This document shows positions 5,934-23,707 of a DNA stretch of 64,000 bases, piece by piece. The stretch's first letter is position 1. Each line of letters opens with the position of its first letter. A model generated the notes under the pieces. That model saw nothing but the letters and a program-made list of their open reading frames with translations. It was not told the DNA's origin and ran no database searches. Location: contig NZ_QAJM01000039.1 in the NCBI RefSeq assembly GCF_003852405.1, positions 1 to 64,000 of the forward strand, written 5' to 3'. Source of the stretch: Pseudomonas sp. KBW05 (GTDB lineage: Bacteria > Pseudomonadota > Gammaproteobacteria > Pseudomonadales > Pseudomonadaceae). The position numbers were made by a program, and so were the translations under genes.

Positions 5934-7196
5934 CTACAACAATGAAATCGGGTAACTGATGAAAATCCGGTTCTCATCGAACTCATTGTTGCTGAAATCC
6001 CGGCGCATGGTCGAGTTGCGCCATTTCACATTCAAGTTCTTCAGCGCGCCACTTTGCACGGTGTAAGCCAGTTCCGATTCACGGCCCCACTCCTTGCCGT
6101 CGGTGATCGCCCCGGTGTGCACATTACTGCCGCTGATATAGCGGTTCATCAGGGTCAGCCCCGGCACACCCAGCACCACGAAGTTGAAGTCATGCCTCAG
6201 CTGCCAGGATTTTTCCCTGGCGTTGTCATAGCTGGCGTTGTAGCTGTCGTTGGCCAGGGTGCCGCCGCTGGTGCCGTTGACCTTCATCCACACGCTGTTG
6301 CCGGTGAGTTTCTGCAGGCCCACGTAAAAGGTGTTGCCGCCGTAGCGTGCCGAGAGCAGGGCGAACGTGGTCTTGTTGTCGAGGTCGCCGGCCAGGGCGC
6401 TGCCGTCCTCCTTGCCGTTGAAGAAGCCGAGGTTGGCGCCCAGGGTCCAGTCGCCCACGGGTTGGCTGTGGGTGAGATTGAGGTATTGCTGCTGGTAGAT
6501 GTCGGTGAGTTCGGCGTACCACAGGCCGATCTGGGTGCGTTTGTCGTTGAACGTGTATTCACCGCCGCCGAAGTTGAAACGGTCCGAGGTGAACGCGGCT
6601 TTGCCGTTCATGAACATGTCTTCCATGCTCGCGTCGTTGCGTGGGCTGTTGCCACGGAACTGGCCGCCGTAGAGGGTCAGGCCGGCGATTTCGTTGGAGG
6701 TGACCTGGCCGCCACGGAAGGTCTGGGGCAGGGAGCGGCCGTCGTCGGAGCGCAGGATCGGCAACACGGGCATCCATTCGCCGACCTTCAATTCCGTCTT
6801 CGACAGCCGGGTCTTCAGCGCCACGCCGAGGCGGCCGAAGTTGTCGGCCGGGCGGCCGTCGCTATGGATCGGCAGCAACTGGGTACCGCCGGTGCCTTTG
6901 CCGCCGTCGAGCTTTTGCGAGTACAGGCCCAGCACATCGATGCCGAAACCCACGGTGCCTTGGGTGAAACCGGACTTGGCGTCGAGAATGAAGTTTTGCG
7001 TCCACTCCTCGGCCTTGGCTTGAGGATTGGTCGGGTTGGTGAAGTTGCGGTTGAAGTAGGCGTTGCGCAGGTTGAGCGTGGCCTTGGCATCGTCAATAAA
7101 ACCATCGGCCTGGGCGCAGAGGGGCAGGGCGGCGCTCAGGCTGCCGAGACCGATAAAGCCCAGGCGTGCGCAGGAATTGCGGGCGAAGTGACTCAC
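5934..7196 (-). CDS. OprD-family outer-membrane porin
   Basis: 420-residue outer-membrane beta-barrel porin for uptake of small carboxylated substrates. It starts with a signal peptide (about residues 1-30, ending LPLCAQA before DGFIDDAKA). OprD-family landmarks follow: the LNLRNAYFNRNF start of the barrel, EEWTQNFILDAKSGFTQGTVGFGID, and the alternating polar/aromatic strands to the C-terminus. The start is GTG at 7196 with GGGAG eight bases upstream. Position next to udh suggests uronate or aldarate uptake; this is contextual inference, since OprD paralogues differ widely in substrate. The terminus ends in Leu rather than the usual Phe, a minor oddity. Confidence 0.87.
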   Translation of the reverse strand: MSHFARNSCARLGFIGLGSLSAALPLCAQADGFIDDAKATLNLRNAYFNRNFTNPTNPQAKAEEWTQNFILDAKSGFTQGTVGFGIDVLGLYSQKLDGGKGTGGTQLLPIHSDGRPADNFGRLGVALKTRLSKTELKVGEWMPVLPILRSDDGRSLPQTFRGGQVTSNEIAGLTLYGGQFRGNSPRNDASMEDMFMNGKAAFTSDRFNFGGGEYTFNDKRTQIGLWYAELTDIYQQQYLNLTHSQPVGDWTLGANLGFFNGKEDGSALAGDLDNKTTFALLSARYGGNTFYVGLQKLTGNSVWMKVNGTSGGTLANDSYNASYDNAREKSWQLRHDFNFVVLGVPGLTLMNRYISGSNVHTGAITDGKEWGRESELAYTVQSGALKNLNVKWRNSTMRRDFSNNEFDENRIFISYPISLL

Positions 7197-16015: not shown

Positions 16016-17299
16016 ATGAACGCTGCCCTCGACGTTCTGCAATCCACCCATCAGCACATCAATCGCGACCGTTTGTGGCAGTCCCTGATGGACCTCGCCA
16101 AACTCGGCGCCACACCCAAGGGCGGTGTGTGCCGCCTGGCCCTCACCGACCTCGACCGCCAGGCCCGCGACCTGTTCGTGCAGTGGTGCGAAGCCGCCGG
16201 TTGCACCGTGACCATCGACGGCATCGGCAACATCTTCGCCCGCCGCCCCGGGCGCAACCCCGACCTGCCACCGGTGATGACCGGCAGCCATATCGACACC
16301 CAACCCACGGGCGGAAAATTTGACGGCTGCTTTGGCGTGCTTGCCGGTGTGGAAGTGCTGCGCACCCTCAACGACCTCCAGCTGGAAACCGAGGCGCCGC
16401 TGGAAGTGGTGGTATGGACCAACGAAGAAGGCTCGCGCTTTCCGCCGTGCATGATGGGTTCGGGGGTGTTTGCCGAGAAATTCAGCCTGGCGGATACCCT
16501 GGCCAAGGTCGATGCCGATGGCGTCTCGGTAGGCGATGCGTTGAACGCGATTGGCTACGCCGGTACACGGGCGGAGAGCGGGCACAAGGTCGGCGCGTAT
16601 TTTGAAGCGCATATCGAACAGGGGCCGATTCTTGAGGACGAGAAAAAGACCATCGGCGTGGTATTGGGCGCACTGGGCCAGAAGTGGTTTGACCTGAAAC
16701 TGCGCGGCGTCGAAGCCCACGCGGGGCCGACGCCGATGCACCTGCGCAAGGATGCCCTGGTGGGCGCAGCCGCCGTGGTGGCGGCCGTGAATGCGGCGGC
16801 GCTGGGGCATCAGCCCCATGCGTGTGGCACGGTGGGCTGCCTGCAAGCCTATCCTGGCTCGCGTAATGTAATCCCCGGTGAGGTGCGCATGACCCTGGAT
16901 TTCCGTCACCTGGAGCCGGCGCGGTTGGATTCGATGATTGCCCAGGTGCGCAAGGTGATCGATGAGACCTGCGCCAAGCATGGCTTGAGCTTTGAAATGG
17001 AGCCAACGGCGGACTTCCCGCCGCTGTACTTTGACAAAGGCTGTGTGGACGCCGTGCGCGATGCAGCGAACGGCCTGGGCCTGTCGAACATGGACATTGT
17101 CAGCGGGGCAGGGCACGACGCGATCTTCGTCGCCGAGTTGGGCCCGGCGGGGATGATCTTTGTGCCGTGTGAAGGGGGCATCAGCCATAACGAAATCGAA
17201 AACGCCGCGCCGGATGATCTGGCGGCGGGCTGTGCGGTGTTGTTGCGCGCGATGGTCGCCGCCTCTGCCGCGATAGCGGGGCGCCAGATGGCTGCCTGA
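16016..17299 (+). CDS. Zn-dependent N-carbamoyl-beta-alanine / allantoate amidohydrolase family enzyme
   Basis: 427-residue M20/amidase-hydantoinase-family enzyme. It would complete uracil breakdown by hydrolysing N-carbamoyl-beta-alanine to beta-alanine, CO2 and ammonia. Metal-site motifs are SHIDTQPTGGKFDG (His and Asp, about residues 90-103), TNEEGSRF (Glu, about 136), EAHIEQGPILE (His, about 200), and the C-terminal GHDA and SHNEIE. A strong GAGGAG ribosome-binding site precedes the ATG at 16016. The family includes allantoate amidohydrolase and L-carbamoylases, so the specificity is assigned mainly from the preTA/hydA context. A clear terminator follows. Confidence 0.87.
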   Translation: MNAALDVLQSTHQHINRDRLWQSLMDLAKLGATPKGGVCRLALTDLDRQARDLFVQWCEAAGCTVTIDGIGNIFARRPGRNPDLPPVMTGSHIDTQPTGGKFDGCFGVLAGVEVLRTLNDLQLETEAPLEVVVWTNEEGSRFPPCMMGSGVFAEKFSLADTLAKVDADGVSVGDALNAIGYAGTRAESGHKVGAYFEAHIEQGPILEDEKKTIGVVLGALGQKWFDLKLRGVEAHAGPTPMHLRKDALVGAAAVVAAVNAAALGHQPHACGTVGCLQAYPGSRNVIPGEVRMTLDFRHLEPARLDSMIAQVRKVIDETCAKHGLSFEMEPTADFPPLYFDKGCVDAVRDAANGLGLSNMDIVSGAGHDAIFVAELGPAGMIFVPCEGGISHNEIENAAPDDLAAGCAVLLRAMVAASAAIAGRQMAA

Positions 17300-17354
17300 C
17301 ACGGTTTTTCTTCACTCACGGAGGCGCCACCTGGGCGCGTCCGCGCACACACAG

Positions 17355-17378
17355 AACCGGCGCCTAGCGCCGGTTTTT
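17355..17378 (+). terminator. Rho-independent terminator after the amidohydrolase gene
   Basis: ACCGGCGC and GCGCCGGT form an 8-bp GC-rich stem with a short loop, followed directly by a run of five T (TTTTT). Confidence 0.85.
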
Positions 17379-17419
17379 GCGTCTTTCCCCTTCTGAAAAA
17401 TATCGCCTGCCTGCTCTGG

Positions 17420-17451
17420 TACAGATGCTGGAGAAAACCACCATACAGATG
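17420..17451. promoter_or_regulatory. Direct repeat in the promoter region of the LysE/oxygenase operon
   Basis: TACAGATG occurs at 17420-17427 and again at 17444-17451, 24 bases apart, which is about two helical turns. An inverted pair AGAAAACCAC (17432-17441) / GTGGTTTTTCT (17480-17490) overlaps it. MocR-type regulators often bind direct repeats, and a MocR gene closes this cluster. The remaining intergenic region up to 17611 shows no other clear element. Confidence 0.35.
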
Positions 17452-17611
17452 GCCGGGCGTTCAACTGTGCATCAAAGAAGTGGTTTTTCTGGATCTTAAT
17501 TAAGTGCCAAGTAGCGTTAACAATAGCTTATTCGTTGAGTTGCGTTGGGCACGTCTTAATGCAAGTACCGGAAAACCTATTCGTCCAGTTGTATGTGTCC
17601 GGGGTTTAATA

Positions 17612-18247
17612 ATGACTATCTATGCGTGGTTGTCGTTCATTCTGATTACGATGGTGCAGGCCGGTTCGCCAGGGCCGTCAACGGTATTTTTGGTGAATAA
17701 CTCAATCAAGTATGGGCCACTGAAAGCGATTGGCGTATTGACCGGGGATGTATTTGCCATCTTGATCATGGGCTTGATCTCGTCACTGGGTATTGCCACT
17801 TTTTTTGCAGAACATCCGTCGATGTTTAATGCCTTGAAACTGGCCGGTGCGGCCTATCTTGTTTATCTGGGGGTGGGTGCGTTCAAGAAAAGCCGCGCGA
17901 TCATGACTGCTGCAAGTCCTGATGCACCGGTTGTCAGGGCGCCCGCCTTGACGCGCCAGTGGGCCCAGTCCTTTTTGATCGGTATCAGTAATCCAAAGGC
18001 GCTGGTGTACTTTACCGCGCTGCTGCCGCAGTTCGAAAAAAGTGGCACGCCCGATCTTCAGTTCTTTGCGTTTCTTGTGGTTATCAGCGCACTGATAAAG
18101 TTTTCGATTCTTTCCTGTTACGCCGTAGTGGCTACCAGGATCGCGTCGAAGTTGACGTCGCCCTCCGCCAGTAGAATCGGTTCCAAAGTAGTCGCTGTGT
18201 TCTTCGTATTTTTTGGTGCGGCATTAGGGTTCTCTACCATCCATTGA
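17612..18247 (+). CDS. LysE/RhtB-family amino acid exporter
   Basis: 211-residue inner-membrane exporter with about six transmembrane helices. The N-terminal motif MVQAGSPGPSTVFLVNNSIKYG (the family G-x-x-GP signature) is at about residues 14-35, and the GISNPKALVYFTALLPQF motif is in the middle. The family exports amino acids and close analogues. It is the first gene of an operon with a 2-oxoglutarate dioxygenase, a di-iron oxygenase, a ferredoxin and a GNAT. Export of a modified amino acid made by that operon is therefore the natural inference. ATG 17612 is preceded by TCCGGGG at good spacing; a longer upstream frame lacks this. Base composition is slightly more AT-rich than the neighbours. 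Confidence 0.86.
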   Translation: MTIYAWLSFILITMVQAGSPGPSTVFLVNNSIKYGPLKAIGVLTGDVFAILIMGLISSLGIATFFAEHPSMFNALKLAGAAYLVYLGVGAFKKSRAIMTAASPDAPVVRAPALTRQWAQSFLIGISNPKALVYFTALLPQFEKSGTPDLQFFAFLVVISALIKFSILSCYAVVATRIASKLTSPSASRIGSKVVAVFFVFFGAALGFSTIH

Positions 18248-18260
18248 AGGATATCAATCT

Positions 18261-19034
18261 ATGAAGTATGAAGGCTCTGCAGCCCGTTCATTGTCCACTG
18301 TGCAAAGCACCTCTGATCTGATCGAGCAGCAACTCAGGCACAGCGGGTATTGGGTGGGCAACTATTTCAACTACTTCGTGACGCTGGCCCATCGTTCCGC
18401 TGACTGGAGAGCGTTCCTGCAGACGTGGGACAGCTTGCCGCCGGATGAGTTTATGGCGGACGGCGGCAAATACCGTCGGCGGCGCTTTACCGAACTTCGC
18501 TACAGTGTGCTTAACGATGAAATCGGCATACTTCCGCATCGGCCGTTCTTTCAGGACAAGTACACGAATACCTTGAATGGCGGCGTGGATCGATACTTTG
18601 AACCGATCACCCCCTACATTGCGACGCACCCGTTCATAAAACGCATGATTCGCGATTATGTGGCGATCTTTACCCGCTATAAGGATGTGGCGGTGTGGCA
18701 GGTCTATTTGCACCAAGTGAGAATTACATCGTCGCGCGGTGTTGCCGGTTTCCCGACACCGGAAGGTATACATAAGGACGGTGTTACGTTTTCCAGTTTG
18801 TTTTGCGTCAACCGCACGGACAATTGCACCGGTGCAGAAAATTCCATCTATGACAACGACAAGGCCTTGCTCGAAAGTTTTACCCTCCAGCGCTATGGCG
18901 ACCTGGTGATCTTTGATGATTCCAAGGTTTATCACAGCGTCAGTCAAATGAACACGGCAGACGACGGTATCGCGTCGCGAGATATGTTGTTTTTGGAATT
19001 CACGGCGCAAGGGGCTGAGCATGTCGCGTCATAG
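18261..19034 (+). CDS. 2-oxoglutarate/Fe(II)-dependent dioxygenase (BsmA/IDO-like family)
   Basis: 257-residue enzyme of the 2OG-Fe dioxygenase family whose characterised members, such as L-isoleucine 4-hydroxylase, hydroxylate free amino acids. The iron triad is visible as His171 and Asp173 in PEGIHKDG and His225 in VYHSV. Arg240 in ASRDMLFLEF is a plausible 2-oxoglutarate contact. The gene follows the LysE exporter by 13 bases with AAGGA before its ATG, and its last 14 bases overlap the start of the di-iron oxygenase gene. The substrate is unknown. Context suggests hydroxylation or oxidative tailoring of an amino acid before or after N-oxidation by the next enzyme. Confidence 0.82.
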   Translation: MKYEGSAARSLSTVQSTSDLIEQQLRHSGYWVGNYFNYFVTLAHRSADWRAFLQTWDSLPPDEFMADGGKYRRRRFTELRYSVLNDEIGILPHRPFFQDKYTNTLNGGVDRYFEPITPYIATHPFIKRMIRDYVAIFTRYKDVAVWQVYLHQVRITSSRGVAGFPTPEGIHKDGVTFSSLFCVNRTDNCTGAENSIYDNDKALLESFTLQRYGDLVIFDDSKVYHSVSQMNTADDGIASRDMLFLEFTAQGAEHVAS

Positions 19035-19968
19035 TGGAATGGATATTGAAACCCGCGATTATTCACGGGAAGTGATTGAGCGCATCAGCCAAAGTTGGTC
19101 GTTTGACGCCGAAGTCATGCGCTTTAAAGGTATTACCAGTCTTGCGTTTGATATGCATGCGCCAGACTTTCTGGAGGCGATGGTGCCTTTCTCGTCGTTC
19201 GACGCGTGGCGCGCCCTGGAACCTCAAGATAAGAACGACTTGCTCTCTGCCGGGTGGATTATCTATCAGAGCAACACCATCTTTATTGAAACTGATTTAG
19301 TCACGCCGGCCTGTATCGAAGTCATTCGTTCGCGGCAAGACAACAGTGTCGGCCCCGAGATGGCACGCTCAATGGCGGAGGCGATGACTGACGAGGGCTA
19401 TCACACGCTGCTGGCAGTGCTCACCTGTGATGAGGTGCGGGCCAACCGGCAACTTGCGTTGTTTCCTGCGGACTTTCACTTGGTGAATGTCATGAATGCC
19501 TATATCCATGGGCTCGATAGCGAATGGAAGCGGCGCATTGCGCGTATCGCTACGGCCTGTTGCACAGAGAACCACATCACCGATTACCTGGACCTGCTGG
19601 CGAACGCGACGTCGATCCAGCCGATGTTTCTCGCGGCGGTCAATGCCCATGCCAAGGATGAGTGGAGCCATGGCTCACAGTTTGCGGTGTTGGCGCGGGA
19701 TGTCTATTGGCAGCTCTCTAAAGATGGAAAGCAGGTGTTCAAGGAAACCGTCGAACTGGTCGCGAAGAACTTCTTCCGGGCCGATCTCAATGCCTGGATC
19801 ACGGTGATCGATCAACTCGCGCGACCCTCACTCGATGGCGTGCGGGCGGCAGTGGTAGACAACGCAGTAGAGCTGCAGCGCGGGGTCGAGTTCACGAACA
19901 ACAATCGCGGCTTGATGAAACTCTACGACAGCCTGGAATGGGAATGGACCAACGATGACCGCCAATAA
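19021..19968 (+). CDS. AurF-type di-iron oxygenase (probable N-oxygenase)
   Basis: 315-residue ferritin-fold protein resembling AurF, which oxidises an amine to a nitro group, and the PvfB/HamC-type N-oxygenases. All seven expected iron ligands are present with AurF spacing: Glu90, Glu125, His128 (ExxH in DEGYH), Glu183 (TENH), His210, Glu214 and His217 (HAKDEWSH). Relative to AurF the first three are shifted by 11 and the last four by 13, so the active-site geometry appears complete. The start overlaps the dioxygenase stop by 14 bases with AAGGGG six bases upstream. The C-terminus overlaps the ferredoxin gene by 14 bases, suggesting a fixed stoichiometry with its electron donor. The substrate is unknown; an amino acid-derived amine is inferred from the operon. 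Confidence 0.82.
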   Translation: MSRHSGMDIETRDYSREVIERISQSWSFDAEVMRFKGITSLAFDMHAPDFLEAMVPFSSFDAWRALEPQDKNDLLSAGWIIYQSNTIFIETDLVTPACIEVIRSRQDNSVGPEMARSMAEAMTDEGYHTLLAVLTCDEVRANRQLALFPADFHLVNVMNAYIHGLDSEWKRRIARIATACCTENHITDYLDLLANATSIQPMFLAAVNAHAKDEWSHGSQFAVLARDVYWQLSKDGKQVFKETVELVAKNFFRADLNAWITVIDQLARPSLDGVRAAVVDNAVELQRGVEFTNNNRGLMKLYDSLEWEWTNDDRQ

Positions 19969-20233
19969 TTTCACGCTCGCGTGCGCAGGGCAGCGTGAGC
20001 CCATCGCCAGCGACGTTTTTTCCCTGGTCAACGCCTGTGAAAAAATCGGCCTGGTGCGTACCCGTTGCCGGCAGGGGCGGTGCGGTGCATGTCAGGTGAA
20101 GTTTGTCTCTGGTGAGTACAGCGAGTGGGCACCCATGCTTGCGCTCACGGAAAAGGAAAGAGGGCACAACGCAATCTTGCCCTGTGTGCTGGTGCCGCTC
20201 TCGGACATTGAAGTTGAGGCTTGGTACCCATGA
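19955..20233 (+). CDS. [2Fe-2S] plant-type ferredoxin
   Basis: 92-residue ferredoxin. Four Cys ligands are at Cys38, Cys43, Cys46 (CRQGRCGAC) and Cys77 (LPCVL), the CX4CX2C...C pattern of plant-type [2Fe-2S] ferredoxins. The surrounding GRCGACQVKFVSGEY is typical. It overlaps the di-iron oxygenase gene by 14 bases and the GNAT gene by four, so it is almost certainly the dedicated electron donor for the di-iron centre. No cognate reductase gene is in the operon; a housekeeping ferredoxin-NADP reductase would have to serve. Confidence 0.88.
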   Translation: MTANNFTLACAGQREPIASDVFSLVNACEKIGLVRTRCRQGRCGACQVKFVSGEYSEWAPMLALTEKERGHNAILPCVLVPLSDIEVEAWYP

Positions 20234-20718
20234 GCGAGATGATTTACGTAAAAAAACAAAACTTCGTGATTCGCAGCGCAAGACTCGAAGACGCTATCGC
20301 CATCCGGAAAATGGTATTCAAGACCTTCGTGGAGTACGGCATCGCGGCAGACCCTGACGATGATGACCGCGACATCATGTGCTTTGGTGTACCCAAGGCG
20401 AATGTCGTGGAGCTGGTCACGGTGTTTGGTGATGTGCCGGTGGGGTCCGCCATCCTCACGGGGGGCGACGATGGCCGGGTGAAGCTCACCAAGTACTACC
20501 TGGACAAGGACTACCGTGGTTTCGGTGCCGGTGTGGCGATGCTCCAGGCGGCGGTCTCGACGGCACGGCAACTGGGGTACAACGAGATTTTCCTGAAAAC
20601 CCGGGCACGCTACAAAGAGGCGGTTCAGTTGTACGAGTCAACCGGTTGGGTGAGGGGGGCGGACCAGCCAGGCCCTGGTCCGGAACGCGTCTACGCCATT
20701 CGTTTTTCTGAAGACTGA
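20230..20718 (+). CDS. GNAT-family N-acetyltransferase
   Basis: 162-residue acetyl-CoA-dependent acyltransferase. The pyrophosphate-binding motif A is seen in KYYLDKDYRGFGAGVAML (about residues 85-102), followed by the family ending LYESTGWVRG. Its ATG lies within the ferredoxin stop (ATGA overlap), so it is the last gene of the operon. Two roles are plausible: acetylating a biosynthetic intermediate, or protecting the producer by N-acetylating the product, as Ttr does for tabtoxin. Neither can be decided from the sequence. A hairpin with a short T-run follows. Confidence 0.83.
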   Translation: MSEMIYVKKQNFVIRSARLEDAIAIRKMVFKTFVEYGIAADPDDDDRDIMCFGVPKANVVELVTVFGDVPVGSAILTGGDDGRVKLTKYYLDKDYRGFGAGVAMLQAAVSTARQLGYNEIFLKTRARYKEAVQLYESTGWVRGADQPGPGPERVYAIRFSED

Positions 20719-20738
20719 CACCGATGCGCTGAGGCAGG

Positions 20739-20760
20739 CAGGCCGTCACCGGCCTGTTTG
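20739..20760. terminator. Hairpin terminator between the GNAT and MocR genes
   Basis: CAGGCCG (20739-20745) and CGGCCTG (20750-20756) form a perfect stem with a TCAC loop, followed by TTTG. It lies between convergent genes and may act in both directions. Confidence 0.55.
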
Positions 20761-20771
20761 TCGTTGAGGCA

Positions 20772-22238
20772 CTAGCGCAGCATGTTGGAAACGCTCAGGT
20801 CCAGCACCCGTTTGCCGATCATCTTGATCGCTTCCTCCACCCGCTCATCAAGCGCGCCGCCATAGTTGATGCGGATGCAGTTTTCATACTTGCCGGAAGA
20901 GGAGAATATTTTCCCGGTGGCAATTTGTATGTTGTGTTGCATCAGGTAGTCGCTGAGCTCATAGGCCGACACGCCGTCCGGGAGCTCCATCCACAAGAAA
21001 TACCCGCCCTGGGGCCGGCTGATCCGAATGCTCGGGTTGAAGTATTTGGAGATCCAACTGGTCATCAACTCGCGGTTGGCCTTGTAGTTGGCGCGCATGC
21101 GCCGCAGATGGATCTGGTACAAGCCCTTGCCCATGAACTCGGCAATGGCGCGTTGGTTCGCGGTGGCCGTGGCGCCGGAGCTGGTGTATTTGATATGCAG
21201 CACTTTGTCGTAGATTTTCCCGGGCACGACCCAGCCTACCCGCAGCCCGGGCGCGAGTGTTTTTGAGAACGACCCACACAGGATGATCTTGCCCTCGGTG
21301 TCCAGGGACTTGATGGTTTTGGGGCGCGGGTACGGGTACGTGAGGTCGCCGTAGGTGTCATCTTCGATGATAAAAAAGCCGAAGGTCCTGGACAGTTCTA
21401 CCAGGGTTTCCTTGCGTTCATCCGGCATCACATAACCCAGCGGGTTGTTGCAGTTCGGGTTGACCAGCACCGCGCGGATCGGCCAGCGCTGCGCGATCAG
21501 TTCCAGTGATTCCAGGCAGATGCCCGTCAGCGGGTGAGTGGGCACTTCAATGACTTTGATGCCGCAGACTTTGAGGGTCTGTATCGCCCCGTGAAAGCTC
21601 GGTGACTCGACGACAACAATATCCCCCTGGCTGCAAATGGCCCGTATGGAGCACATCAGGGCTTCCTGGCAGCCGGTGGTGATGATGATTTCTTCGGGGT
21701 CGACCAGGCAGCCGGAGTCGATAATCAAGCGGCTGACTTGCGTCCTTAGTTCCAGGTTGCCTTTGATGTTTTCATAGTTGAGCCCGTCCTTTTGCCAGCG
21801 TTTGGCTTCGTGGCTCAGGCTTTTCATCAGGGGCTTCAAGGTCGGTGTGTCAACGTGGGGCATGCCTCTGCCCAGTTGCAGCACCCGTTCGTCCGGGGTG
21901 CTGGTGGTCACCTTGTAGATTTCATCCCACTCGAGGATATCGAGGGGGTTTTTTTCGATTGCGCGCATGGTGGGCAATAGGTGCAGGTTCTGCCGGCGGG
22001 TGACGAAGTGGCCGGACTTGGGCGCGGGTGATGCCAGGCCTTCTTCTTCCAGCAAGCGATACGCCTGTTGCACGGTGCCCAGGCTGACGCCGTGTTCTGC
22101 GCTCAACATGCGCACAGAGGGAAGGCGTTGCCCCGCCTGGTACATGCCCATTTCTATTCTGCTGCGCAGTAAACGGGCCAACTCTGAATACTTTGCCACT
22201 GATCCCTCACCGCTAACCTGTCCTGTGCGTAGTGGCAT
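20772..22238 (-). CDS. MocR-family (GntR HTH + aminotransferase-like) regulator
   Basis: 488-residue fusion of a GntR-type winged helix (about residues 14-80; RLPSVRMLSAEHGVSLGTVQQAYRLLEEEGL) with a fold-type I aminotransferase-like domain. The PLP lysine is Lys326 in CGSFSKT, and the NPNCNNPLGYV and EDDTYGDL motifs are intact. MocR proteins sense an amino compound through PLP and usually control a neighbouring operon. It is convergent with the LysE/oxygenase operon, so it is a good candidate for its regulator. It also lies 53 bases after the RND outer-membrane gene in the same direction, so it could be read from that operon. A GTG at 22199 is an alternative start. The domain could conceivably also be a true aminotransferase. 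Confidence 0.85.
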   Translation of the reverse strand: MPLRTGQVSGEGSVAKYSELARLLRSRIEMGMYQAGQRLPSVRMLSAEHGVSLGTVQQAYRLLEEEGLASPAPKSGHFVTRRQNLHLLPTMRAIEKNPLDILEWDEIYKVTTSTPDERVLQLGRGMPHVDTPTLKPLMKSLSHEAKRWQKDGLNYENIKGNLELRTQVSRLIIDSGCLVDPEEIIITTGCQEALMCSIRAICSQGDIVVVESPSFHGAIQTLKVCGIKVIEVPTHPLTGICLESLELIAQRWPIRAVLVNPNCNNPLGYVMPDERKETLVELSRTFGFFIIEDDTYGDLTYPYPRPKTIKSLDTEGKIILCGSFSKTLAPGLRVGWVVPGKIYDKVLHIKYTSSGATATANQRAIAEFMGKGLYQIHLRRMRANYKANRELMTSWISKYFNPSIRISRPQGGYFLWMELPDGVSAYELSDYLMQHNIQIATGKIFSSSGKYENCIRINYGGALDERVEEAIKMIGKRVLDLSVSNMLR

Positions 22239-22291
22239 AGTCCTCCACCGCCCCGGTGGGTGGCAAGGGCGACGGCGGTGAGGGCGTGTCG

Positions 22292-23707
22292 TCAGTCTCG
22301 TTGCCAGCCACCTCCCAGCGCGGCCACTAAGCCGACACTCGCCTGCAACTGCCGCGTCTGCACGGCCTGCAAGGTCCGTTGCGCCTGCAGGGCGGCGGTC
22401 TGCGCCGTCACCACGTCCAGGTAACTCACAGCGCCCGCCTGGTAGCTGTTCATCGCCAAGGTCTGGGTGTGCTGCGCCGCATCTGCCGCCGCCTGTTCAT
22501 CCTCGGCTTGCTGCTGCAAGTCGCGCAGTTGGGCGAGGTTGTCCTCTACTTCGCGCACGGCTTTCAGTACATGGCTGCGGTACTGCGCCGAGGCTTCTTC
22601 GAATTCGGCCTTGGCCTGGCGTTCATTGGCGCTCAAGCGTCCGCCATCGAAGATGGGCAGGTTGACCAGCGGCCCCAGCGCCCAATAGCGGTTACTCGCC
22701 GACAGCAGGTTGCCGACGCCTTGCGTCTGCCCGCCGATCAACCCGGTCAAGCTGAAGTCCGGGTACCACGCCGCCTTGGCCACGCCGATGTTGGCGTTGG
22801 CCGCAAACACGCGCCGCTCTGCTGCTGCAATGTCCGGGCGACGTTGCAGCAGGTGGCTCGGCAGCTGCGCAGGAATGCCCGGTAGTGCGAGCAGCTGCGC
22901 ACTCGGCGCCAGGCTGAAGGTGCTGGCCGCCACGCCCACCAGTTCGCCAATCGCATGTTCGCTCAGGTTGCGTTGCCCGCGCACGTCATCCCATTGCGCC
23001 TTGGCTTCAGCCAGCTGGTTTTGCGCGCGGGTGAGGTCCAGTTCGGAGGCGATCTGGCCCTCGTAGCGGCTGCGCGTCAGTTGCAGCGCCTGGCGATAAT
23101 CCTCCAGTGAACCCTCGAGAATCCGCGCCTGCGCATCCAGCCCGTTGAGCTGCACATACAAGCTCGCCAATTGCTGTTGCAAGCTCAAGCGCGCCACCGC
23201 CAAGTCGTCGCCGGCCGCTTGCGCCTGGGCATCGCCCGCCGCGACCTGGTTGCGGATTTTGCCCCACAGGTCCAGGTCGTAGCTCAGGGAAAACCCTGCG
23301 GTGTTGCTGTTGTAGACCGACGGTTGCGTGGTGCCGCGCAGGGGCCGCGAGTCCGATTGGCGTTGGCGCAGCGGCTGCGCACTGGCATTGATTTGCGGGA
23401 ACAACCCGGCATGCAGTTGGCTGGCATACGCCTGGGATGCGTCGAAGTGCGCCAGCGCCGCGGCCAGGTCCGGGTTGGCCTTGAGCAGTTGCTGTTGCAG
23501 TCCACTCAGGCGCGGGTCGTTGTAGAGCGTCCACCATTCGGGCGCCAGTTGATCGGACGGTTGCGCGCTGTGCCACGGGCCGTCGCTGGTCTGTTCGCGA
23601 TAGCCAGCGGGCAGGTCAACGCTGGGTACCTGGTAGGTGGGTGCCATGGAGCACCCTTGCAGGGCCAGCAATATCAGGGCCGCGAAGGGTTTAAGCCTTG
23701 GGCGCAT
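22292..23707 (-). CDS. RND efflux outer-membrane lipoprotein (OprM/NodT family)
   Basis: 471-residue outer-membrane channel of a tripartite efflux pump. It begins with a lipoprotein signal peptide (MRPRLKPFAALILLALQGC, lipobox LQGC). Family motifs follow: APEWWTLYNDPRL, the duplicated alpha-helical coiled-coil halves, and LLQRRPDIAAAERRV, then SYLDVVTAQTAAL near the C-terminus. The ATG at 23707 overlaps the end of the adaptor gene by 17 bases. It is the third gene of the permease–adaptor–channel operon. Length is normal for NodT-type proteins. Confidence 0.92.
   Translation of the reverse strand: MRPRLKPFAALILLALQGCSMAPTYQVPSVDLPAGYREQTSDGPWHSAQPSDQLAPEWWTLYNDPRLSGLQQQLLKANPDLAAALAHFDASQAYASQLHAGLFPQINASAQPLRQRQSDSRPLRGTTQPSVYNSNTAGFSLSYDLDLWGKIRNQVAAGDAQAQAAGDDLAVARLSLQQQLASLYVQLNGLDAQARILEGSLEDYRQALQLTRSRYEGQIASELDLTRAQNQLAEAKAQWDDVRGQRNLSEHAIGELVGVAASTFSLAPSAQLLALPGIPAQLPSHLLQRRPDIAAAERRVFAANANIGVAKAAWYPDFSLTGLIGGQTQGVGNLLSASNRYWALGPLVNLPIFDGGRLSANERQAKAEFEEASAQYRSHVLKAVREVEDNLAQLRDLQQQAEDEQAAADAAQHTQTLAMNSYQAGAVSYLDVVTAQTAALQAQRTLQAVQTRQLQASVGLVAALGGGWQRD

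Follow-up and report, generated by a model that had tools for sequence, protein, structure and literature searches.

In the biosynthesis of hormaomycin (HrmI/HrmJ) and belactosin (BelK/BelL), a di-iron N-oxygenase and an Fe(II)/2-oxoglutarate (2OG) oxygenase of the PF10014 type act one after the other on a free amino acid. HrmI and BelK, which are haem-oxygenase-like di-iron enzymes (PMC10764440, PMC13108848), make 6-nitronorleucine from lysine, and HrmJ and BelL close it to a cyclopropane (PMC10764440). In the dnf (Dirammox) cluster of Alcaligenes and in dnf-like clusters of Pseudomonas, an AurF-like enzyme is accompanied by a [2Fe-2S] partner and a regulator of the MocR type, and in the trichostatin pathway TsnB7 hydroxylates glutamine with the help of TsnB6 (PMC5719088). 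Here we describe a locus of Pseudomonas sp. KBW05, contained in the first 64,000 nucleotides of contig NZ_QAJM01000039.1 (the window), in which genes for a LysE-type exporter, a 2OG enzyme, an AurF-type di-iron protein, a [2Fe-2S] ferredoxin and a GNAT N-acetyltransferase form an operon that is met by a MocR regulator gene. With a probability that we put at roughly 0.6, this MocR-controlled operon would produce a free amino acid oxidized on a side-chain nitrogen and on carbon and would export it.

All six proteins exceed the Pfam cut-offs for their families, in agreement with the families named in the original prediction, which had been made from the letters and their open reading frames alone. 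The packing it described, a 13-base gap followed by overlaps of 14, 14 and 4 bases with a convergent MocR gene on the minus strand, agrees with the open reading frame coordinates (Table 1). Pfam likewise found no nonribosomal peptide synthetase (NRPS), polyketide synthase or carrier protein among the six proteins, as had been claimed. The pvf/ham diazeniumdiolate clusters combine an AurF-type N-oxygenase with an NRPS and are in this respect unlike the present locus. The five-gene order, whose conservation had been proposed as a check, is the same in the two further genomes in which the operon was found.

Carriers are rare: within a sample of 399 Pseudomonas genomes, drawn from a larger group, only three possess the operon, the window's own included. 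AurF matches at E ≤ 1e-10 were present in 67 of these genomes, with close matches in three (100, 98 and 74% identity) and the remainder at 36% identity or less; 2OG matches at E ≤ 1e-8 were present in 105, with the same three close and the others at 37% or less. A contig scan of 84,980 species, which used exact 8-residue patterns and would miss distant operons, returned two loci, in Pseudomonas sp. CBZ-4 and P. farris SWRI79, giving three known carriers in all. Elsewhere in the class, an AurF match at 1e-30 was found in one of 368 genomes (29% identity). Plasmids gave 11 records matching AurF, with at most 36% identity, and 41 matches to the 2OG enzyme, the best of the 25 listed being at 39%. 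Both CBZ-4 and P. farris carry all five genes in the same order as well as the MocR gene, at 94 to 99% and 68 to 80% identity, respectively. The MocR protein is 80% identical between the window and P. farris, where its gene sits 1.4 kb further on, on the opposite strand relative to the operon. Between these two copies the proportions of synonymous (pS) and nonsynonymous (pN) differences in the six genes were 0.78 to 0.92, near saturation, and 0.12 to 0.21. As the order has been conserved while synonymous sites are near saturation and pN is low, the linkage is kept by selection and not by chance; the operon is a conserved unit under purifying selection, and chance packing was rejected.

Conservation of this kind also bears on the idea of a loose association of genes, or of an island in decay, whose oxygenases would act on different substrates with no single product. 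The rarity of the operon and an interrupted lysE frame in P. farris (see below) would suit such an island, but the overlapping frames, the identical five-gene order in three genomes and the strong purifying selection make it very improbable.

In the 2OG enzyme, alignment with solved relatives showed H171-x-D173, H225 and R240, whose functional roles we assume, to be intact. Its best PDB sequence match is 9dqp (E 2.3e-27), followed in order by 3pl0, 9dq0, 8jms, 8w8h and IDO 6lnh; by their PDB titles, 9dqp and 9dq0 are HrmJ of two Streptomyces and 8jms is BelL. The assignment is based on the sequence match to 9dqp, the structural matches of an AlphaFold2 model (run with three-sequence alignments) having served mainly for PDB titles. 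The signature TPEG-x-H-x-D is common to the window enzyme, 9dqp, 9dq0, 8jms and 3pl0 and differs from the IDO motif. An IDO-type hydroxylase was rejected, as the enzyme has PTPEGIHKDGVTF in place of SSPIWLHxDDEP and lies outside the IDO/8w8h pair in a 31-protein tree. The original prediction had called the product hydroxylated, which is narrower than the evidence: since the closest solved relative, HrmJ, belongs to the nitro-amino-acid cyclopropanase kind, ring closure may also be possible. Between the His and the Asp of H-x-D, the three operon proteins have Lys, as does IDO; 23 of the 31 rows, 9dqp among them, have Arg, and 9dq0 and 8jms have His. Position 136, which is His in BelL and Arg in HrmJ, determines stereochemistry (PMC10764440); that it corresponds to this middle column is our guess, weakened by the His in 9dq0, an HrmJ.

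A specific form of the preferred reading could follow from these likenesses, in which the AurF-type enzyme would take the place of HrmI/BelK and oxidize a basic amino acid at its terminal amine, giving a nitro group, and the 2OG enzyme would then yield a nitrocyclopropyl or hydroxylated nitro amino acid. The matches to two HrmJ structures and to BelL, the TPEG-x-H-x-D motif shared with them and not with IDO, the described passage of lysine through 6-nitronorleucine and the nitro groups made by AurF and CmlI (PMC13108848) are all consistent with this form. It is nevertheless unlikely, as the 2OG enzyme falls outside any HrmJ or BelL clade in a star-like tree, its H-x-D carries Lys as in IDO where 9dqp has Arg and 8jms and 9dq0 have His, and AurF and CmlI, which do form nitro groups, belong to a clade that excludes the AurF-type protein of the operon.

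For the AurF-type protein, alignment to 5hyg and 3chh showed seven intact ligands (E90, E125, H128, E183, H210, E214 and H217), three His and four Glu, and its PF11583 score of 101.9 bits stands against a cut-off of 29.6. The structure 3chh is AurF; 5hyg, aligned at E 8e-34, is taken as CmlI from PMC13108848, which names the code 5HYH. The ligand spacing is the same, but for one residue, as that of DnfA, whose ligands are given as E88, E123, H126, E182, H209, E213 and H216 (PMC9478400). An arylamine N-oxygenase of the AurF/CmlI kind was rejected, the 4-aminobenzoate N-oxygenase model scoring 89.8 bits against a cut-off of 620 and the protein falling outside the 6-row clade that contains AurF and CmlI in a 32-protein tree. 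In that tree, built from a set that left out Alcaligenes DnfA, TsnB7, PvfB and HamC, the three operon AurF proteins formed one clade, neighbored by an 18-row Pseudomonas/Pantoea clade. The adjoining ferredoxin carries C-x4-C-x2-C plus a distal Cys (read from the translation), which we take to be a [2Fe-2S] motif, and is the probable electron donor to the AurF-type protein.

To compare surroundings, 15 AurF and 15 PF10014 loci were picked by hand, mostly as best matches, from 67 and 105 genomes, respectively, plus one more genome; partners were identified mostly by tblastn probes and in a few cases by Pfam, and the resulting counts are not rates. At the 15 loci of AurF homologues (L056 to L070), a flavin/2Fe-2S reductase match was found at 11, an amidotransferase at 9 and a MocR-like gene, within at most 14 kb, at 10. 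Two of these 10 MocR matches were at 35% identity and eight at only 21 to 27%, one of the eight being Pfam-checked. Among the 12 loci examined from the neighboring clade (11 Pseudomonas, 1 Pantoea), a reductase was present in all 12 and an amidotransferase-like gene in 8, which is the dnfABC layout. The original prediction left these Dnf-like clusters of AurF protein and reductase, the nearest AurF kin in Pseudomonas, out of account.

Kinship with these clusters suggests a second specific form of the preferred reading, in which the AurF-type enzyme and the ferredoxin would turn the amide into glutamate gamma-hydroxamate (or its asparagine counterpart), with the 2OG enzyme adding a C-hydroxyl before the hydroxamate amino acid is exported. 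The neighboring clade (joined at 92/91) with its DnfA/B/C layout, the hydroxylation of glutamine by TsnB7 with TsnB6 (PMC5719088) and a reference title in PMC9136411 that describes DnfR as MocR-like argue for it. The operon, however, has no amidotransferase and no FNR-fused reductase, a long branch divides the two clades, and Alcaligenes DnfA and TsnB7 were not among the proteins of the tree. What DnfA does is under debate: work on the conversion of glutamine to a hydroxamate is cited in PMC11160463, and according to PMC11440038 direct proof that DnfA oxidizes glutamine has not been found. We regard this form as only tentative.

Although the operon resembles parts of both HrmI/HrmJ and Dnf, it was placed under neither, because the haem-oxygenase-like partner of the former and the reductase fusion and amidotransferase of the latter are absent. 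The 2OG enzyme shares the PF10014 match, the H-x-D...H arrangement and the TPEG signature with HrmJ and BelL but forms a separate lineage, and the N-oxygenase is of the AurF type (PF11583) and not of the haem-oxygenase-like PF14518; ferredoxin, LysE, GNAT and MocR are added here, and an NRPS or ligase is absent from the operon. Relative to dnf, the locus has a 92-amino-acid ferredoxin with no FNR and additionally the 2OG enzyme, LysE and GNAT; neither a DnfB-type FNR/2Fe-2S reductase nor a DnfC-type class I glutamine amidotransferase was found by Pfam among the operon proteins. The likeness to TsnB7/TsnB6, an AurF-like enzyme with a helper protein acting on glutamine, is one of description and not of compared sequences, and a TsnB9-like transferase is absent from the operon. 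The gvg cluster of Pseudomonas, for 4-formylaminooxyvinylglycine, is similarly a small cluster for an oxidized free amino acid with LysE genes, and its core consists of the carbamoyltransferase GvgF with GvgA and GvgC (PMC8064604). Membership of the operon in this group was rejected, as Pfam, used without comparison to the GvgA and GvgC sequences, identified no carbamoyl- or formyltransferase among the operon proteins. The gvg cluster, too, presumably lacks an NRPS. No description of this gene order was found in the literature searched, most subscription journals lying outside its reach.

The interpretation of operon function in the original prediction is partly supported, and the following sequence of events is proposed. 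Through a repeat upstream of lysE, MocR would switch the operon on sensing an amino-acid-like ligand or pyridoxal phosphate. The ferredoxin would pass electrons to the AurF-type enzyme, which would oxygenate a side-chain nitrogen to an N-hydroxy group (amide to hydroxamate) or a nitro group. Either earlier or later than this N-oxygenation, the HrmJ/BelL-related 2OG enzyme would act on a C-H of that molecule, hydroxylating it or closing a ring. LysE would export the product, and the GNAT may acetylate product or precursor for tailoring or self-protection. The genes, their intact metal ligands, the conserved linkage, purifying selection and the conserved repeat are observed; what we infer is the chemistry throughout, the sequence of its steps, the ligand, and the binding of the repeat by MocR.

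Several results weigh against this proposal. The 2OG enzyme is its own lineage with no supported partner in the star-like 31-protein tree, where long branches were flagged, and its reaction accordingly cannot be named. The AurF clade is isolated, its joining to the neighbor at 92/91 being under the mark for a firm branch, and the AlphaFold models are poor (pLDDT 46 and 39). No precursor-forming enzyme is present in the operon, and the role given to the GNAT is a guess. The lysE frame of P. farris is interrupted after 170 codons, possibly by a sequencing error; export may thus be dispensable there, or that copy may be decaying. Lastly, at 6 of the 15 PF10014 loci none of the partners described below was found.

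A further and doubtful possibility is that the operon represents a second, independent invention of the route that oxidizes the side-chain nitrogen and then closes or oxidizes carbon with a PF10014 enzyme, on a free amino acid. A ferredoxin-fed AurF-type enzyme would here replace the haem-oxygenase-like HrmI/BelK, and the exported product would be a nitro or hydroxamate, possibly cyclopropyl, amino acid, of which we know none from Pseudomonas. Two oxygenase families are paired in a minimal operon, and as an assembly line is absent, two or three purified proteins would suffice for a direct test of the free-amino-acid chemistry. Should the AurF-type enzyme act like HrmI/BelK or TsnB7, it would illustrate how pathways exchange N-oxygenases, and both a small biocatalytic module and a new amino-acid antimetabolite may come of it. 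A simple route to finding the inducer is offered by the predicted MocR operator.

Table 1. Features of the operon locus, in window coordinates
Feature	Position	Strand	Size and evidence
lysE, LysE-type amino-acid exporter gene	17612..18247	+	211 aa; PF01810, 101 bits
Fe(II)/2OG oxygenase gene	18261..19034	+	257 aa; 2OG-Fe_Oxy_2 PF10014, 182 bits
AurF-type ferritin-like di-iron protein, probable N-oxygenase	19021..19968	+	315 aa; PF11583, 101.9 bits
Stand-alone plant-type [2Fe-2S] ferredoxin	19955..20233	+	92 aa; Fer2 PF00111, 33 bits
GNAT N-acetyltransferase, ATG start	20230..20718	+	162 aa; Acetyltransf_1 PF00583, 45 bits
MocR regulator	20772..22238	-	488 aa; GntR PF00392, 52 bits; Aminotran_1_2 PF00155, 125 bits
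Candidate MocR operator, TACAGAT-N17-TACAGAT (17420-17450) in 36-bp block	17416..17451	+	conservation; 161 bp before lysE

The MocR protein has both the GntR helix-turn-helix and the aminotransferase-like domain that define its family, and spaced direct repeats are frequently bound by such proteins (PMC5320631). TACAGAT-N17-TACAGAT, present upstream of lysE in all three carrier genomes, is newly put forward here as a candidate MocR operator. The 36-bp block around it is identical to P. farris at 29 of 36 bases; over the remaining upstream region the figure is 134 of 264 (51%). The pattern occurs once in the 6.5-Mb genome and its reversed control not at all, and in shuffled pairs a shared 7-mer and period was found in 0 of 1,000. 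Repeats of a 7-mer with period 24 are by themselves not rare, occurring at 33 places in the window, and the weight of this one therefore lies solely in its conservation and uniqueness. In the stretches taken upstream of the AurF clusters L068, L069 and L061 no exact 7-mer repeat of period 18 to 31 was found, and the one upstream of L057 is unrelated; the motif is thus not shown to be general. A scan of positions 17280 to 22700 for sigma-70-like promoters gave no sites (shuffles averaged 2.6), which also counts against the proposal, and a terminator scan gave fewer sites than in shuffles. The GNAT frame has an in-frame TTG at 20221, ahead of the ATG at 20230. For LysE the best NCBIfam models were homoserine/threonine exporters, with scores below cut-off, and for the GNAT no NCBIfam model scored above cut-off.

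The five operon genes have a G+C content of 0.51 to 0.59 (0.61 to 0.72 at third positions), compared with 0.58 (0.77) for the MocR gene and 0.64 (0.79) for the neighboring M20 gene, and the 2-kb G+C profile falls to 0.534. In CBZ-4 the flanks are those of the window, M20 and efflux genes; the P. farris copy occupies another genomic place, with integrase-like and DUF3987 genes within 5 kb of the operon (L004:1971-5376 and 6598-7110). Eight relatives were fetched for the M20 gene. In two of them (G004 and G017) the M20 and efflux genes adjoin with no operon between them, and in the other six the M20 gene was present and no efflux match was found in the stretch. At the operon's spot G017 has a Y1/IS200-like transposase gene (L112:7980-8438), which we take to be of the type associated with repetitive extragenic palindromes (REP), and G004 has a similar frame. 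Low G+C, the integrase near the P. farris copy and the transposase that two relatives have at this spot together suggest that the operon was acquired horizontally.

This context also bears on a catabolic or detoxifying role, in which MocR would respond to an amine or amino acid from outside, which the oxygenases would attack and whose products the GNAT and LysE would clear. By Pfam, the genes next to the operon include one of the M20 amidohydrolase type and a permease of the cytosine/purine type; those further on look like pyrimidine degradation genes. MocR proteins often govern the use of amino compounds, among them gamma-aminobutyric acid, taurine and ectoine (PMC5320631). Such a role is nonetheless improbable, given that the operon has two oxygenases but lacks a hydrolase, a dehydrogenase and an importer, that its flanking genes adjoin without it in two relatives, and that the P. 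farris copy is located elsewhere.

At the 15 other Pseudomonas PF10014 loci, a LysE-like gene was adjacent in four (one Pfam-checked), an argininosuccinate-synthase-like gene together with an EamA exporter was found in three, and a haem-oxygenase-like di-iron protein with a desaturase-like gene and ThiF in two. At one of the six partnerless loci a weak KamA-like match lies at a distance of 1.5 kb, and the very common PF10014 group at 30% identity was sampled by a single locus, L136, where no partner was found. An exporter or another di-iron protein is thus a recurring, not a constant, partner of PF10014 genes, which fits chemistry on free amino acids. In two Pseudomonas (L072:3727-9986 and L073:3678-9465), the PF10014 gene lies beside genes for haem-oxygenase-like di-iron, fatty-acid-desaturase-like, ThiF and semialdehyde dehydrogenase proteins. 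An argininosuccinate-synthase-like gene lies near the PF10014 gene at six loci (L071:5547-8415, L075, L128, L080, L121 and L122), of which three are in Pseudomonas genomes and the others on plasmids of Rhizobium, Bradyrhizobium and Burkholderia; four of the six also have an EamA/DMT exporter.

Further arrangements were seen around AurF homologues. Two Pseudomonas (L068:2761-9280 and L069:3908-11512) have genes for KamA-like (named from resemblance, with no Pfam hit), class IV aminotransferase, TauD-type 2OG, AurF-type and MBL-fold hydrolase proteins, with a convergent MocR gene whose product is 35% identical to that of the window; other AurF matches in the genus at 27 to 30% identity may share this cluster. 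A large plasmid of Pantoea agglomerans (L076:4390-10173) carries consecutive genes for arylamine N-acetyltransferase, hydrolase, MFS, AurF, reductase and ATP-grasp proteins. The genome of the window itself encodes one more member of the AurF family, a diverged one, next to a DUF3050/haem-oxygenase-like protein (L002; G000:C2:190499-191278).

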